NCBI GenBank assembly: GCA_945877405.1
Contig: CAMCSA010000021.1
Span: 1 to 35,903 of the forward strand
Origin: an uncultured Erysipelotrichaceae bacterium
GTDB lineage: Bacteria > Bacillota_I > Bacilli_A > Erysipelotrichales > Erysipelotrichaceae
Reading direction: 5' to 3'
DNA length: 35,903 bases
This document shows positions 15,094-29,642 of the stretch, piece by piece. The position numbers were made by a program, and so were the translations under genes. The notes below the pieces were generated by a model. The model saw nothing but the letters and a program-made list of their open reading frames with translations. It did no database searches and was not told the origin of the DNA. Position 1 is the first letter of the stretch, and each line of letters opens with the position of its first letter.

Positions 15094-15116
15094 AAACGGA
15101 TATTGCTATCCGTTTT
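15093..15116. terminator. Bidirectional terminator
   Basis: CGGATA and TATCCG pair around TTGC, flanked by AAAA and TTTT so it works in both directions. Both convergent genes end inside or at the edge of it. Confidence 0.8.
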
Positions 15117-15573
15117 CTTTCTGTCTGGCAAGGGCAATCATATTGGACAGCTGAACTCTGTATAACAGCAGGTCATCTTCCATTGGGTTGGCTACTACTG
15201 CAGCAATTCTTTCATTTCCATTCAGGAAATCCAGCAGATCCTGTTTTGTCAACAGCAGCAGTGATTCACCATCTTTCAGCTGTGGCTTGAAAGATTGAAA
15301 CAGATCCATGTCTGTAAAGACAGGGAAATACCGTTCACCATCTGTGCCTTCCATCATGTCAGCTCTATCTATGTCGGCAATGTTCAGGTCTTTCTTTGTG
15401 GTATCTTTCAGAAATGCGGAACCGATGAATTCCACATCTTCGCAAAGATACAGAGTCAGGTCTGTTAAAGCAATCCGCATGCCTTCTTCAGATAAAGGCG
15501 CTCTTCTTTGGGCAAGCAGCTGACTCAGTTTTGCATCTTTGTGATAATCAATAATATTCGTGAAATAACGCAT
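15106..15573 (-). CDS. SseB-domain-like protein
   Basis: A 155-residue soluble protein. GERYFPVFTDMDLFQSF followed by LLLTKQDLLDFLNGNERIAAVVANP resembles the SseB N-terminal domain (family pattern: a value to store, PVFTD, then a position with conserved NP). Its function in Firmicutes is unknown. GAGAG lies upstream of the ATG, and TATAAT at 15604-15599 with CTGCCA 18 nt further upstream gives a promoter. It is divergent from the MarR-activase gene, with 95 nt between. Confidence 0.65.
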   Translation of the reverse strand: MRYFTNIIDYHKDAKLSQLLAQRRAPLSEEGMRIALTDLTLYLCEDVEFIGSAFLKDTTKKDLNIADIDRADMMEGTDGERYFPVFTDMDLFQSFKPQLKDGESLLLLTKQDLLDFLNGNERIAAVVANPMEDDLLLYRVQLSNMIALARQKENG

Positions 15574-15668
15574 CTGTTTTTTCTCTCTTTTCCATTGGAA
15601 TTATACACGAAACAGGAAGGAATGGCAGTTTTTCTGTATAATAATAACAATAGAAAGAAGAGGAATCC

Positions 15669-16816: not shown

Positions 16817-18670
16817 ATGTATCGGGTCAAAAAAAGAGATGGAAAAATCACGGATTTTGACATTCAGAAAATCATCAGTGCATTGCGGAAAGCCTTTGAG
16901 GGAAGTCACAGGCAATATAATGATGATATCATCGACATGCTTGCATTGCGTGTGACAGGAAATTTTGAGTCACGGATTATTGATGGATGTATTGATGTGG
17001 AAGATATTCAGGACAGTGCGGAAAAGATATTGAGTGAATGTGGATACTCAGATGTTGCCAAGGCATATATTCTGTATCGCAAACAAAGAGAAAATATCCG
17101 GAACATTGATAAATCCAATGTCGACTACAGGCAGATTGTTGACAGTTATCTGAACTCCGTTTCATGGAAAGGAGAAAATGGTAAGCGGTCTGATTATTCC
17201 ATTGGTGGTCTGATTATGTCCAATTCCGGTGCTGTAACGGGAAATTACTGGCTGTCGGAAGTCTATGATCAGGAAGTCTCGCAGGCACACAGAAATGGGG
17301 ATCTGTATATCCATGATCTTAATATGCTGACAGGTCATTCCACAGGATGGTCATTGAAACAGCTGATGATACAGGGGATTGCAGGTGCGGCTGGTAATAT
17401 CAGCTGTGGCCCTGCACGACATCTGAACACACTTTGTGAACAAATGGTCCGATTTATTGGTGTTGTCCATAACGAGTGGGCTGGGACACAGACATTTGTA
17501 TCATTTGACACGTATCTGGCACCATTTGTTAAAGTGGATCAGCTTGACTTCGCGCAGGTCAAACAGTGTATTCAGACATTTGTGTATGGTGTCAATACAC
17601 CATTGAAATGGGGATATGAACCACCGCATACCAATATTGTTCTGGACTGGTATGTACCTGAGGATATGCAGGATGAACCTGCCATTGCCGGGGGAAAACC
17701 ACAGGGATTTACATATGGGCAATGTCAGAAGGAGATGGATCTGATCAATGCTGCTCTGATTCAGGTCATGTGCGAGGGCGACTTTGAAGGCAGAAGGTTT
17801 CAATACCCGCAGCTTACCATCATGAGTGATGAAACGATCTTTGATCATGAAAACGCATGTGTTTTATCAGATCTTGCCTTGACAGGCAATGAAGTATACT
17901 TTGCCAGCTGCACCAGCAAAACAAAAAACAGAGCAGATGTCAGAAATCTGGTCCGCAATGAAAAGGTCGATCTGCGCAGGTTGTACCGTAACTGCGGTGG
18001 AATTACAGGAAGTGGAGAAAACACTGGTACGTTTGGCCTTGTGACATTGAATATTCCAAGGCTGTGCCTGCTCAAGTGGAAGGAAGAAGAACTGTGGGCA
18101 GGTCTGGATCGTCTGATGGATATGGCAGCCCGCAGTCTGCATACAAAGAAAACAGTCATCACAAAACTGATGGAAAGCGGGCTGTATCCATATACGGGAT
18201 ATTATCTGAAAACATTGAACAGACATTTTGGAATGATTGGTGTGACTGGATTACAGGAAGCATACAGGCATGTGGATCATCAGTTGTGGCCGACATGTCA
18301 GATGTTTGAAACTGCTGCGCTGTCCCACATGCGGGAAAGACTGAAAAGCTATCAGAAAAAGTACGAAACACTGTTTGGAATTGAATGTGTACAGTCATCT
18401 TCAGCAAGAATGTATCTTGCGGAAAAAGACAGGAATGCATTTGCAGATCTGCATCTGATGGAAGATCATGGCCTTGTTTCCTACAGCAGCGATATTGAAA
18501 GGGGAAGTGATCTTTTTGAAACAATGGATCATGGAGAAAAGATACTTTCCATGTATTCCAGTGGTGGCGTATTCCATCTTGGTTTATCGGAAGAGATGAA
18601 TGGAAAAGATCTCTGTCTTTTCCTGAAAAAAATCATCTCTGCCTACGATATTCCATATATCGGTCTTTAA
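16817..18670 (+). CDS. nrdD: NrdD-like anaerobic ribonucleotide reductase lacking the glycyl-radical domain
   Basis: A 617-residue protein with an N-terminal ATP-cone (about residues 1-95) and the ten-stranded NrdD barrel (HDLNMLTGHSTGWSLKQLM, then NISCGPARHLNTLCEQ, EWAGTQTFVSFD). A candidate thiyl-radical Cys is C393 in RNCGG, followed by LVTLNIPRL. It ends at IPYIGL. In canonical NrdD this position (LPYFTL in E. coli) is followed by a zinc site and the glycyl-radical motif RxxGY; both are absent. The stop is followed at once by a terminator, so no frameshifted remainder is visible. It either uses a separate glycyl domain protein or has another role. GGGAGG precedes the ATG. Confidence 0.8.
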   Translation: MYRVKKRDGKITDFDIQKIISALRKAFEGSHRQYNDDIIDMLALRVTGNFESRIIDGCIDVEDIQDSAEKILSECGYSDVAKAYILYRKQRENIRNIDKSNVDYRQIVDSYLNSVSWKGENGKRSDYSIGGLIMSNSGAVTGNYWLSEVYDQEVSQAHRNGDLYIHDLNMLTGHSTGWSLKQLMIQGIAGAAGNISCGPARHLNTLCEQMVRFIGVVHNEWAGTQTFVSFDTYLAPFVKVDQLDFAQVKQCIQTFVYGVNTPLKWGYEPPHTNIVLDWYVPEDMQDEPAIAGGKPQGFTYGQCQKEMDLINAALIQVMCEGDFEGRRFQYPQLTIMSDETIFDHENACVLSDLALTGNEVYFASCTSKTKNRADVRNLVRNEKVDLRRLYRNCGGITGSGENTGTFGLVTLNIPRLCLLKWKEEELWAGLDRLMDMAARSLHTKKTVITKLMESGLYPYTGYYLKTLNRHFGMIGVTGLQEAYRHVDHQLWPTCQMFETAALSHMRERLKSYQKKYETLFGIECVQSSSARMYLAEKDRNAFADLHLMEDHGLVSYSSDIERGSDLFETMDHGEKILSMYSSGGVFHLGLSEEMNGKDLCLFLKKIISAYDIPYIGL

Positions 18671-18694
18671 GGGAGTGAATCAGCTCCCTTTTAA
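18671..18694 (+). terminator. Terminator after nrdD-like gene
   Basis: GGGAG pairs with CTCCC around TGAATCAG, followed by TTTT. Confidence 0.75.
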
Positions 18695-20926: not shown

Positions 20927-21217
20927 ATGCATTGCTGTAAAGAACATACACACAGAAATGAAGAAGAAAAGAAAAAGCTGATCAATCGTCTGAAAAAAGC
21001 AGAAGGACAGATCAGGGGTATACAGAAAATGGTGGAAGAAGACGTATACTGTCCGGAAATTCTGATTCAGGTATCTGCACTGACGGGTGCTTTGAATGCT
21101 TTTAACAGGGAACTGCTTTCCCGGCATATACAGACATGCGTTCATGATGATATTGTCGCAGGTAACAATGAAAGCATGGATGAGCTGATGGAAGTTCTGC
21201 AGAGGCTGATGAAATGA
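20927..21217 (+). CDS. csoR: CsoR-family copper-sensing repressor
   Basis: A 96-residue all-helical repressor. The Cu(I)-binding triad of CsoR is complete: C42 (in DVYCPE), H67 and C71 (in RHIQTCV). The N-terminus is Cys/His-rich (MHCCKEHTHR), which may add metal affinity. In this family Cu(I) binding releases the operator. GGAGGG lies 8 nt before the ATG. It overlaps copA by 4 nt and sits right behind its own operator, so it controls copA as well as itself. Confidence 0.93.
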   Translation: MHCCKEHTHRNEEEKKKLINRLKKAEGQIRGIQKMVEEDVYCPEILIQVSALTGALNAFNRELLSRHIQTCVHDDIVAGNNESMDELMEVLQRLMK

Positions 21218-23694
21218 AAGAATATCAGATTACGGGAATGAGCTGTGCCTCCTGTCAGGCACATGTGACAAAAGCTGTGGAACAGGTAGCGGGTGTGACT
21301 TCTGTCAATGTATCCCTGCTTTCAAATTCCATGCAGGTAGAAGGAAATGCAGATGAGAAAGCAGTGATAGCGGCCGTGAAGGATGCCGGTTATGGTGCAT
21401 CTTTGAAAGGAAAGCAGCAGTCTCAGCAGGATCCCTATGAAGACAGGGAAACACCTGAACTTTTGAAAAGACTGAAGTATTCCATCGGATTTCTGACAGT
21501 TCTGATGTATTTCAGTATGGGACATATGCTGTCATTGCCTGTACCGTCCTTTCTGGAACACAATCCTGTTGGAAACGGGATCATTCAGATGACGTTGGCG
21601 ATGATTGTGCTGATGATCAACAGAAAATTCTTTGTTTCAGGTTGGAAGGCACTTCGGCATGGATCATCCAATATGGATACCCTGGTTGCGCTGGGAAGTG
21701 GAATCTCATTTGTCTATTCCTTTGTTGTACTGCTGCAGATGAGTGGTATGGAACATGAGGGGGCAATGGCTGCCGTGCACAGTCTCTATTTTGAAACGGC
21801 AGCGATGATTCCATCTTTAATTACAGTCGGCAAAACCATGGAATCTTTGAGCAAAGGGAAAACAACCAGTGCATTACGTCAACTGATTTCGCTTGCACCG
21901 AAAACAGCAGTTGTACTGCGGGATGGGCAGGAAGTAACAGTTGATGCGGATCAGCTTCAGGTGAATGATCTGTTTGTTGTAAGGGCCGGTGAATCCGTTG
22001 CGGCTGATGGGGTGATTGTACAGGGCAGTGCAGGTTTTGACGAATCTTCATTAACAGGGGAATCCGTACCTGTTGATAAACAGGCAGGCGATACTGTGAT
22101 GGCAACCTCGATTAACACTTCCGGTCATGTTGTTGTAAAGGCACAGAAAGTCGGCAAGGATACCGGATTTTCCAGAATTATTGAACTTGTGGCACAGGCA
22201 TCTGATTCCAAGGCACCGATCGCAAGGATCGCAGATCGTGTTTCCGGTATCTTCGTACCATCCATTATCCTCATTGCCACTGTTGTCCTGGCTGGATGGC
22301 TGGTTGCTGGAGCACCATTGGAAAATGCTCTGACACATGCTGTGACAGTACTTGTTGTAGCATGTCCATGTGCGCTTGGACTGGCAACACCAACTGCCAT
22401 CATGGTAGGCAATGGTGTTGCTGCAAAGCATGGTATTCTTTTCAAAAATGCGGAAGCTCTGGAAAATGCAGGACGAATGGAAATCTGTGTCATGGATAAA
22501 ACCGGTACGATTACGCAGGGCGTCATGCATGTTACAGATATTACAGCAGTCAGTCAGAAAAAAGAACTTCTGACATATGCCGTATCACTTGAAAAGAAGT
22601 CCTCCCATCCGGTTGGACAGGCGGTTGCTCAGTATGGGCAGGAAAATGGCGTGTCAGTGATGGATGGAACAGATGTGACAGTTGAAAACGGCAGAGGAAT
22701 TCATGCAAGGATGGATGGACATCTGATTCGAGGGGGAAATCTTTCCTGGATCGGTGAATTGTGCCGGATTGATTCAGATGTGAAAGCGGATATTGAAGAA
22801 AAAAGCAGTCAGGGAAAGACGCCGCTTCTGTTTATGAAAGATGATGAACTGCTTGGAGTAATCTATGTTGCGGATGTGATCCGTAAGGATTCAGCAGCAG
22901 CGATCGAAAGGCTGAAACGCATGGGAATCGTAACTGTCATGTGTTCAGGGGACCGCAGGGCAACTGCTCAGGCAATCGGAGCTCAGGCAGGTGTGGATCA
23001 CGTCATAGGGGAGATGCTGCCGGAAGATAAGCAACGGGTCATTCAGGTACTGAGCAGACAGGGTGTAACTGCGATGGTAGGAGATGGCATCAATGATGCC
23101 CCATCCCTGGTGAGTGCTCAGATCGGTATTGCGATCGGGGCAGGAACGGATGTTGCGATTGACAGTGCCGATATCGTACTGATGAATTCCAGACTCTCAG
23201 ATGTTCCTGCACTGGTACATCTGAGCAGAAAGGTTCTGCGCAATATTCATGAAAATCTGTTCTGGGCATTTGCCTATAATGCATTGCTGATTCCGGTTGC
23301 ATCAGGTATTGTGGCGGGAATCCATATGAATCCGATGTTTGGTGCTGCAGCAATGTCATTGTCTAGCTTTACCGTATGCATGAATGCACTGCGGCTGAAC
23401 AGATGCAGACTGCATGATGAAAAACACGACATGATCAGAAAACAGAAATCAGTTGATTTTACAGATATCAGGAGGAAACAGATAATGAAGAAAACTGTAA
23501 AGATTGAAGGTATGATGTGTGGACATTGTGAAATGTCCGTACGCAAGGCACTGGAAGCCATTGACGGTATTGAACAGGCAACTGTATCTCATGAAACAGG
23601 TACGGCAGAATGTACAATGTCCAAGGATGTGGATGCAGATATCATCCGCAAGGCAATTGAAGACAAAGATTTCACATTTGTTTCAATTGACTGA
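21214..23694 (+). CDS. copA: Copper-exporting P1B-ATPase CopA with C-terminal CopZ-like domain
   Basis: An 826-residue Cu(I) pump in the cytoplasmic membrane. The N-terminal metal-binding domain has GMSCASC (C11, C14). Eight membrane spans follow, with CPC at 384-386 in the transport site. The phosphorylated Asp is D428 in DKTGT, and GDGINDAP is the hinge. The usual pump ends near residue 740. Here it runs on in frame through DFTDIRRKQI into a second heavy-metal-associated domain with GMMCGHC, the form of a CopZ chaperone. That C-terminal domain has its own ribosome binding site and ATG, so pump and chaperone may come from the same gene. It starts inside the csoR stop. Confidence 0.95.
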   Translation: MKEYQITGMSCASCQAHVTKAVEQVAGVTSVNVSLLSNSMQVEGNADEKAVIAAVKDAGYGASLKGKQQSQQDPYEDRETPELLKRLKYSIGFLTVLMYFSMGHMLSLPVPSFLEHNPVGNGIIQMTLAMIVLMINRKFFVSGWKALRHGSSNMDTLVALGSGISFVYSFVVLLQMSGMEHEGAMAAVHSLYFETAAMIPSLITVGKTMESLSKGKTTSALRQLISLAPKTAVVLRDGQEVTVDADQLQVNDLFVVRAGESVAADGVIVQGSAGFDESSLTGESVPVDKQAGDTVMATSINTSGHVVVKAQKVGKDTGFSRIIELVAQASDSKAPIARIADRVSGIFVPSIILIATVVLAGWLVAGAPLENALTHAVTVLVVACPCALGLATPTAIMVGNGVAAKHGILFKNAEALENAGRMEICVMDKTGTITQGVMHVTDITAVSQKKELLTYAVSLEKKSSHPVGQAVAQYGQENGVSVMDGTDVTVENGRGIHARMDGHLIRGGNLSWIGELCRIDSDVKADIEEKSSQGKTPLLFMKDDELLGVIYVADVIRKDSAAAIERLKRMGIVTVMCSGDRRATAQAIGAQAGVDHVIGEMLPEDKQRVIQVLSRQGVTAMVGDGINDAPSLVSAQIGIAIGAGTDVAIDSADIVLMNSRLSDVPALVHLSRKVLRNIHENLFWAFAYNALLIPVASGIVAGIHMNPMFGAAAMSLSSFTVCMNALRLNRCRLHDEKHDMIRKQKSVDFTDIRRKQIMKKTVKIEGMMCGHCEMSVRKALEAIDGIEQATVSHETGTAECTMSKDVDADIIRKAIEDKDFTFVSID
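23485..23694 (+). CDS. copZ: Nested CopZ-like copper chaperone (internal start)
   Basis: In frame inside copA. AGGAGG ends at 23475, 9 nt before the ATG at 23485, better than most ribosome binding sites in this window. The 69-residue product is exactly one heavy-metal-associated domain, with GMMCGHC at residues 8-14. That is the size of free CopZ, which carries Cu(I) to CopA. I infer dual expression, as a fused C-terminal domain and as a free chaperone. Loss of an old copA stop codon would explain the arrangement. Whether the free form is made is not shown by sequence. Confidence 0.6.
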   Translation: MKKTVKIEGMMCGHCEMSVRKALEAIDGIEQATVSHETGTAECTMSKDVDADIIRKAIEDKDFTFVSID

Positions 23695-28637: not shown

Positions 28638-28713
28638 GACTTCTTAGCTCAGTTGGTAGAGCAACTGACTCTTAATCAGTGGGTCGAGGGTTCGAGTCCC
28701 TCAGAGGTCACCA
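28638..28713 (+). tRNA. tRNA-Lys (anticodon CTT)
   Basis: A full cloverleaf: acceptor GACTTCT with AGAGGTC, D arm TAGCTCAGTTGGTAGAGC, anticodon stem ACTGA/TCAGT around CTCTTAA (anticodon CTT, reading AAG), T arm with GGTTCGAGT. The 3' CCA is encoded. A terminator follows. Confidence 0.97.
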
Positions 28714-29563: not shown

Positions 29564-29569
29564 CTGAAG

Positions 29570-29642
29570 TGCCGACTACCGGATTCGAACCAGCGACCTA
29601 CTCATTACGAATGAGTTGCTCTACCAGCTGAGCTAAGTCGGC
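29570..29642 (-). tRNA. tRNA-Thr (anticodon CGT)
   Basis: A full cloverleaf on the minus strand: acceptor GCCGACT with AGTCGGC, D arm TAGCTCAGCTGGTAGAGC, anticodon stem ACTCA/TGAGT around TTCGTAA (anticodon CGT, reading ACG), T arm GGTTCGAATC. The 3' CCA is not encoded, unlike tRNA-Lys nearby, so CCA must be added enzymatically. Confidence 0.97.

Follow-up and report, generated by a model that had tools for sequence, protein, structure and literature searches.

The window analysed here, a 35,903-nucleotide stretch from an uncultured Erysipelotrichaceae bacterium, carries a two-gene operon whose second gene encodes a relative of the class III ribonucleotide reductase (RNR) NrdD that is catalytically dead, since its finger-loop cysteines, reductive Cys1, zinc site and radical glycine are all gone from the sequence. 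Together with the MarR-NrdG2 fusion protein encoded by the first gene, this pseudoenzyme probably controls the gene of the cell's only real NrdD. By comparison of genomes we judge it fairly likely that the fusion represses nrdD via a palindromic operator and that the dead NrdD reports (d)ATP to the fusion, the pair acting in place of NrdR. A wider proposal is held more tentatively, as a serious possibility: i) a dead RNR serves as nucleotide sensor of a MarR/activase transcription factor, the two jointly replacing NrdR across the order; ii) at least three such conversions took place; and iii) the circuit of the window works wholly in trans, with the operator kept only at the true nrdD.

The NrdD-like protein and its activase neighbour

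The start codon of the pseudoenzyme gene lies 2 bp past the stop codon of the fusion gene (Table 1). Its product exceeds the cut-off of the NCBIfam model PRK08270 'ribonucleoside triphosphate reductase' (593 bits versus 548; positions 3-623 of 684). An AlphaFold2 model has a mean pLDDT of 51 (13 rows), and the NRDD barrel is assigned by sequence family only.

Table 1. Features of the operon, in window positions
Feature	Position	Strand	Evidence
Intergenic region upstream of marR-nrdG2; operator of catalytic relatives absent	15574..15668	.	Upstream operator scan
MarR-NrdG2 fusion, 381 aa	15669..16814	+	TIGR02495 178 bits (cut-off 131); MarR_2 PF12802 42 bits; Radical_SAM 75 bits
NrdD pseudoenzyme, 617 aa, operon gene 2	16817..18670	+	ORF, profile matches, family alignment
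ATP-cone (residues 3-92), kept	16823..17092	+	Pfam PF03477 78.7 bits; invariant-residue count
NRDD domain (residues 121-616)	17177..18664	+	PF13597 282 bits, profile positions 2-503 of 562
Codon 175: Ser replaces reductive Cys1	17339..17341	+	Cys in 30/30 canonical relatives; aligns with T. maritima NrdD YC
Codons 379-380: Val-Arg replace finger-loop Cys-Cys	17951..17956	+	CC in 30/30 canonical relatives
Weak hairpin AAGGGAG-8 nt-CTCCCTT with short T run, overlapping and following the stop	18669..18691	+	Terminator scan gives no score

The first-pass annotation described an NrdD-like protein with full ATP-cone and barrel that stops before the zinc and glycyl-radical domain. Its ending is confirmed, as the NRDD match reaches profile position 503 of 562, and the missing C-terminal part corresponds to the Cys4 zinc site and the RITGYY motif of relatives. 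The reported lack of any remnant holds as well: none is found in the three forward frames downstream, and a genome-wide search for an NrdD zinc/glycyl end returned only the C-terminus of the full NrdD on contig C20 (E 1.3e-4) and a chance-level match (E 0.25). The terminator said to follow the stop directly is present as a hairpin, which is weak and scores nothing in the terminator scan. A frameshift, a contig end or an assembly error is unlikely to lie behind the short end, because four relatives have nearly the same endpoint, and for one of these (L071) the genome (G091) is a single contig. Farther downstream in the window (20927-23694, plus strand) lie a putative small regulator of the CsoR kind and, after it, a putative copper-type P-ATPase bearing metal-binding domains at both ends.

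The ending is not the sole loss, as had been supposed, since all three active-site cysteines are replaced as well. Residue positions were anchored on T. maritima NrdD, with whose ASCCRL and PYC motifs the catalytic relative L004 (P0001) was aligned; for that enzyme, PMC4493059 describes SCCR as the motif where the radical probably sits and equates Cys125 with T4 Cys79. The finger loop reads RSMCCRLRL in catalytic proteins and RNLVRNEKV in the window protein, and the Cys1 region changes from GYCAGW to GHSTGW. In the family alignment of 30 catalytic proteins, four of which came from a scan of named genomes, and 24 cysteine-less proteins, the CC pair is present in all 30 canonical members and absent from all 24 pseudoenzymes, and Cys1 is absent from 22 of the 24.

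Of the two domains that the first-pass annotation called full, the ATP-cone deserves the description and the barrel does so only up to the finger loop. Up to residue 95 the window protein keeps 29 of the 30 residues that are invariant in canonical proteins, compared with 15 of 52 in the finger-loop region (residues 336-400); across the 24 pseudoenzymes each invariant residue is kept by a mean of 23.1 proteins in the ATP-cone and 9.7 in the finger-loop region. The ATP-cone of P. copri NrdD holds two ATP or two dATP, with the phosphates near basic residues, among them Lys7, Arg8 and Arg87 (PMC11226230). Window residues K6, R7 and R88, present in all 24 pseudoenzymes, seem to be their equivalents in an alignment of L004 with the structure 8p23. 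By these residue counts, nucleotide sensing looks to have been kept in the window protein and catalysis not.

The activase gene that had been noticed next door is indeed there, immediately upstream and of the NrdG2 type; it is not a plain activase, being fused to a MarR domain (matches to TIGR02495 and MarR_2). The N-terminal part of the fusion holds a MarR winged helix at about residues 35-97 with the recognition-helix motif DKGTCTKSVNRL, and the C-terminal part a radical-SAM NrdG2 domain (150-341) with an intact CPWKCPFC (CxxxCxxC) motif. A second match to this MarR domain is not found in the window genome at E<=1e-4. MarR-NrdG2 adjoins all 24 pseudoenzymes, and catalytic relatives occur with either the fusion or plain NrdG2. 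Pairwise conservation of the MarR versus the radical-SAM domain is 0.51 versus 0.41 at loci with glycyl-keeping pseudoenzymes, 0.54 versus 0.47 at those with short ones and 0.52 versus 0.59 at catalytic loci; the locus groups are unlike in make-up, and the better conservation of the MarR domain at pseudoenzyme loci is suggestive.

Several loci depart from this arrangement. The fusion beside the glycyl-keeping pseudoenzyme L079 has lost two of the three radical-SAM cluster cysteines (GGDNFRCPYYTHP), from which MarR-NrdG2 may work without its cluster. A full MarR-NrdG2 at L199 (G097) has no adjoining NrdD and is followed by a glycosidase-like gene; its genome, 90% complete, gives no PF13597 match despite the fusion. 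Both L079 and G097 speak against our reading of the pair. The small gene divergently upstream of MarR-NrdG2 both in L199 and in the window (15106-15573, minus strand) we take to be SseB-like. In two Clostridia (L114, L117) plain NrdG2 lies about 1 kb downstream, not upstream, of a catalytic gene for NrdD with a thioredoxin-like domain (NrdD-Trx).

At least 24 cysteine-less NrdD proteins occur in the order. The zinc/RxxGY part is kept, and the finger-loop cysteines are lost, in 19 of the 24 (L096 is unreadable there owing to a contig end; the glycyl motif reads RIAGNY in L033 and L072); five, namely the window protein, L039, L040, L071 and L075, have lost the zinc/glycyl part. None of the 24 has the thioredoxin-like domain with which most catalytic relatives end. 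Downstream of the short NrdD in L071 (1-3960) and L075 (1-2963), on the minus strand, a thioredoxin-like domain (CPKC) has a frame of its own immediately past the stop, and the zinc/glycyl domain is gone; the pattern resembles a deletion of the central piece of the C-terminus.

These two types bear on an alternative in which MarR-NrdG2 regulates nrdD and the pseudo-NrdD is its scaffold or redox partner, not a nucleotide sensor. In the RxxGY keepers the signal could then be a glycyl radical that MarR-NrdG2 generates and oxygen destroys, and the window protein would be structural only. The majority of zinc/glycyl-keeping proteins, with L096 unreadable, and the intact radical-SAM cysteines of the window fusion agree with this proposal. 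It fits poorly with the ATP-cone being the best-kept part of the pseudoenzymes and with the broken cluster motif at the glycyl-keeping L079; moreover, the glycyl site is lost from five of the 24, the window among them, so it cannot be a common signal. We regard this alternative as unlikely.

RNR genes, NrdR and the operator palindrome

The window genome (95.6% complete) contains one full nrdD (contig C20, 741 aa, 641 bits) and one canonical NrdG (C75, 185 bits), and no class I/II RNR was found in it, so that the C20 nrdD is its sole visible catalytic RNR gene. The second full nrdD that the first-pass annotation had envisaged is present, and the stand-alone RxxGY protein it had also envisaged, an NrdD glycyl domain of the GrcA/YfiD type, was found nowhere across the genome. 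NrdR (TIGR00244) has no match in the window genome and none over the cut-off in 50 genomes of the order, compared with 9 of 14 well-known genomes in the same search; the weak TIGR00244 matches fall in long frames, mostly RNR-sized.

Nearly all MarR-NrdG2 genes with a catalytic NrdD partner are preceded by a palindrome, AGTTGG-AAAT-CCAACT. Its consensus AGTTGR-N4-YCAACT, with mismatches counted over the ten arm bases and L230 and L233 dropped (gene start or upstream unreadable), is found with at most one mismatch upstream of 41 of 53 marR-nrdG2 genes at catalytic loci (shuffled mean 0.05) and with at most two upstream of 51 (shuffled mean 3.4). Glycyl-keeping pseudoenzyme loci have it with at most one mismatch in 9 of 19 cases (shuffled 0.15), and none of the five short-type loci does, the window included; autoregulation does not apply at the window's own marR-nrdG2, since the operator is missing there. 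Two operator-like matches in the window lie inside genes for tRNA-Lys (ctt; 28638-28713, plus strand) and tRNA-Thr (cgt; 29569-29642, minus strand) and are not operators.

Elsewhere in the window genome the palindrome AAATAGTTGGAAATCCAACTATTT matches exactly once, at C20:17291-17306, 38 bp before the nrdD start codon and inside a longer palindrome, AGAAATAGTTGGAAATCCAACTATTTCT. With all bases equally likely, the genome should contain about 0.5 exact matches, and a given 100-bp promoter hence about 2e-5; the ten places with one mismatch do not exceed chance (11 places in total versus 18 for a reversed-pattern control). Just upstream of the operator is a TTGAAT-17-TATATT box, one of which is also expected by chance.

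The same arrangement recurs in other genomes. In those with pseudoenzymes, the exact operator stands 20-71 bp before the start codon in 20 of 20 readable nrdD genes of the NrdD1 type. Thioredoxin-type (Trx-type) nrdD genes of such genomes are more varied. GGTTGGATTTCCAACC precedes those of G005 and G107 by 47-49 bp. In G015, G305 and G094 the 300 bp before the start codon lack the operator, apart from a variant 224 bp away in G094, and these three genomes count against the operator reading; G305 has a copy further upstream (L104:2083). From genomes that have a close catalytic NrdD-Trx and, with few exceptions, MarR-NrdG2 too (the MarR fusion of G004 and G041 being unconfirmed), 20 NrdD1 loci were taken, of which two were unreadable; the operator is exact in 15 of the 18 others, and the rest comprise one with one mismatch, one GG variant and one with none. 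The 30 control nrdD loci, from genomes chosen for having no close relative of the window NrdD, gave one exact operator (G022), three with one mismatch (G124, G127, G128), two with two mismatches (one being G115, GGTTGGAAATCCAACC) and 24 with three or more; no MarR-NrdG2 was found in these control genomes, except for a MarR-only match in G084. By count, recognition helix and operator covary (32/34 versus 5/28, Fisher p 7e-10), within few lineages and few independent events. The option, raised by the first-pass annotation, that the protein is a regulator gains support from the MarR domain of its neighbour and from this MarR-NrdG2-linked palindrome before the genome's real nrdD.

The control genomes also raise the question of whether a different factor reads the palindrome, the operon having nothing to do with nrdD control. 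Five genomes in which MarR-NrdG2 was not detected (G022, G115, G124, G127, G128) have the operator or a near variant ahead of nrdD. Two of these, G022 with the exact form and G115 with a GGTTGG...CCAACC variant, belong to the genus of the window and have no detected MarR-NrdG2 or close MarR; here the regulator may have been lost or not assembled. The other three, from another genus, carry AAAAGTTGCAAGTGCGACTTTTT 56 bp before nrdD and no MarR-NrdG2 gene (L190, L189 and L188 for G127, G124 and G128, respectively). Against a foreign reader, the palindrome is a mark of the MarR-NrdG2 genes at catalytic loci, genomes without MarR-NrdG2 nearly all lack it before nrdD, and the window genome has no second match to the MarR domain at E<=1e-4. 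We consider such a reader quite improbable.

The mechanism we propose, with MarR-NrdG2 as the factor that reads the palindrome, makes marR-nrdG2 and pseudo-nrdD a regulatory rather than a biosynthetic operon. MarR-NrdG2 would bind the palindrome before the C20 nrdD and would repress this gene, because the operator sits just downstream of the -10-like TATATT. Its NrdG2 half would hold the pseudo-NrdD in the way an activase holds NrdD, and the pseudo-NrdD would tell the fusion the ATP/dATP state through its ATP-cone, so that the pair would stand in for the NrdR absent from the order. The short forms have no glycyl loop, the natural substrate of the activase, which counts against this contact. 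Catalytic relatives probably have this circuit too, with a live NrdD as partner, in which case the regulation is likely to predate the loss of catalysis.

Origins and selection

Relatives of the window protein (E<=1e-40) are present in at least 172 of 315 genomes of the order, and the scan of named genomes gave 16 relatives, all of catalytic type (a contig end truncates 5), with none of them a close orthologue. In the NrdD tree all cysteine-less proteins fall on one side (SH-aLRT 99), on long branches (1.3-1.5 changes per site). In the activase tree, on the other hand, a single pseudoenzyme clade is rejected (AU p 2e-9) and well-supported branches force at least three changes, which speaks against a single origin of the pseudoenzymes; their grouping in the NrdD tree is probably due to long-branch attraction. 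Catalysis thus seems to have been lost repeatedly next to MarR-NrdG2, at least three times. Both trees are of a quick kind, without bootstrap, and the NrdD tree leaves out the fragments L037/L042 (G028). L042 was counted as catalytic in the activase, domain-conservation and operator counts, though its NrdD (G028, L037) is a pseudoenzyme, and the grouping was corrected for the activase tree only.

Pairwise dN/dS was computed by the Nei-Gojobori method for unsaturated pairs of relatives, the window gene not among them (one further pair was saturated). It amounts to 0.072, 0.050, 0.035 and 0.135 in glycyl-keeping pseudoenzyme pairs and 0.089 in the short pair L071/L075, next to 0.033, 0.064 and 0.095 in catalytic pairs. 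By these values the testable pseudoenzymes are under purifying selection.

A functionless, decaying relic of an old NrdD-Trx gene could account for the long branches, for the progressive loss of parts across relatives and for an internal stop in one of them (G028, L037). Such a relic would hardly keep 617 codons open after this much divergence or retain its ATP-cone residues, the relatives' dN/dS of 0.035-0.135 is unlike decay, and the same state arose at least three times beside a kept MarR-NrdG2, all of which makes this explanation very improbable. Scarcely credible is the suggestion of the first-pass annotation that a glycyl domain encoded elsewhere completes an active NrdD in trans, in the manner of GrcA/YfiD and pyruvate formate-lyase. 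A relocated Cys365 might serve such an enzyme, and in a pairwise alignment this cysteine (FASC) does fall on the T. maritima ASCC motif and other barrel residues are partly kept, but the genome holds no stand-alone domain, the ungapped family alignment puts Cys365 14-15 residues ahead of the canonical pair and finds it in just 4 of the 24 pseudoenzymes, and with Cys1 and the finger-loop cysteines lost a domain in trans could not restore activity, the radical having nowhere to go.

Comparison with known systems

In the open PMC literature, searched by titles and abstract starts, no paper came up on a fusion of MarR with NrdG, on an RNR pseudoenzyme or on such a pair controlling RNR; PMC9531940 contains none of the terms inactive, pseudoenzyme and non-catalytic. 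The window protein shares ATP-cone and NRDD domain with class III NrdD of the thioredoxin type (PRK08270; T. maritima 4coi, P. copri 8p23) and is 53% identical to its nearest catalytic relative over 586 columns, but it is without Cys1, the finger-loop CC, the zinc site, the radical glycine and the C-terminal thioredoxin-like domain. The analysis can explain proteins that would be automatically annotated as ribonucleoside triphosphate reductase, as the window protein passes the PRK08270 cut-off, and yet are unable to be one.

The fusion resembles the NrdG2 activases in exceeding the curated TIGR02495 cut-off and keeping CxxxCxxC, and differs from them by its N-terminal MarR domain and, in the window, by the lack of HN after the third cysteine. 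With MarR regulators it has the winged helix in common (PF12802, 42 bits). Operators of that family are short palindromes at the promoters under control, which often include the regulator's own; the candidate palindrome here lies before nrdD and before the marR-nrdG2 of relatives, not before the window's own. Dead paralogues also act as regulators elsewhere, for instance yeast Gal3: a sensor derived from an enzyme governs how the pathway of its catalytic relative is transcribed. A similar role is proposed for the pseudo-NrdD by analogy, the enzymes being different.

NrdR is an ATP-cone/Zn-ribbon repressor of RNR genes (PMC9110341, PMC12176259, PMC12051234). The putative system of the window is like it in the proposed control of RNR transcription, in the ATP-cone as presumed nucleotide reader and in a site adjoining the RNR promoter. 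Unlike NrdR, it has no Zn-ribbon and consists of two proteins, the ATP-cone belonging to a dead NrdD and the DNA-binding domain to a MarR-radical-SAM fusion, and a single 16-nt palindrome takes the place of paired NrdR boxes. The pair is thus a candidate second route by which the dNTP level could be coupled to bacterial RNR transcription without NrdR, built from the enzyme and its activase.
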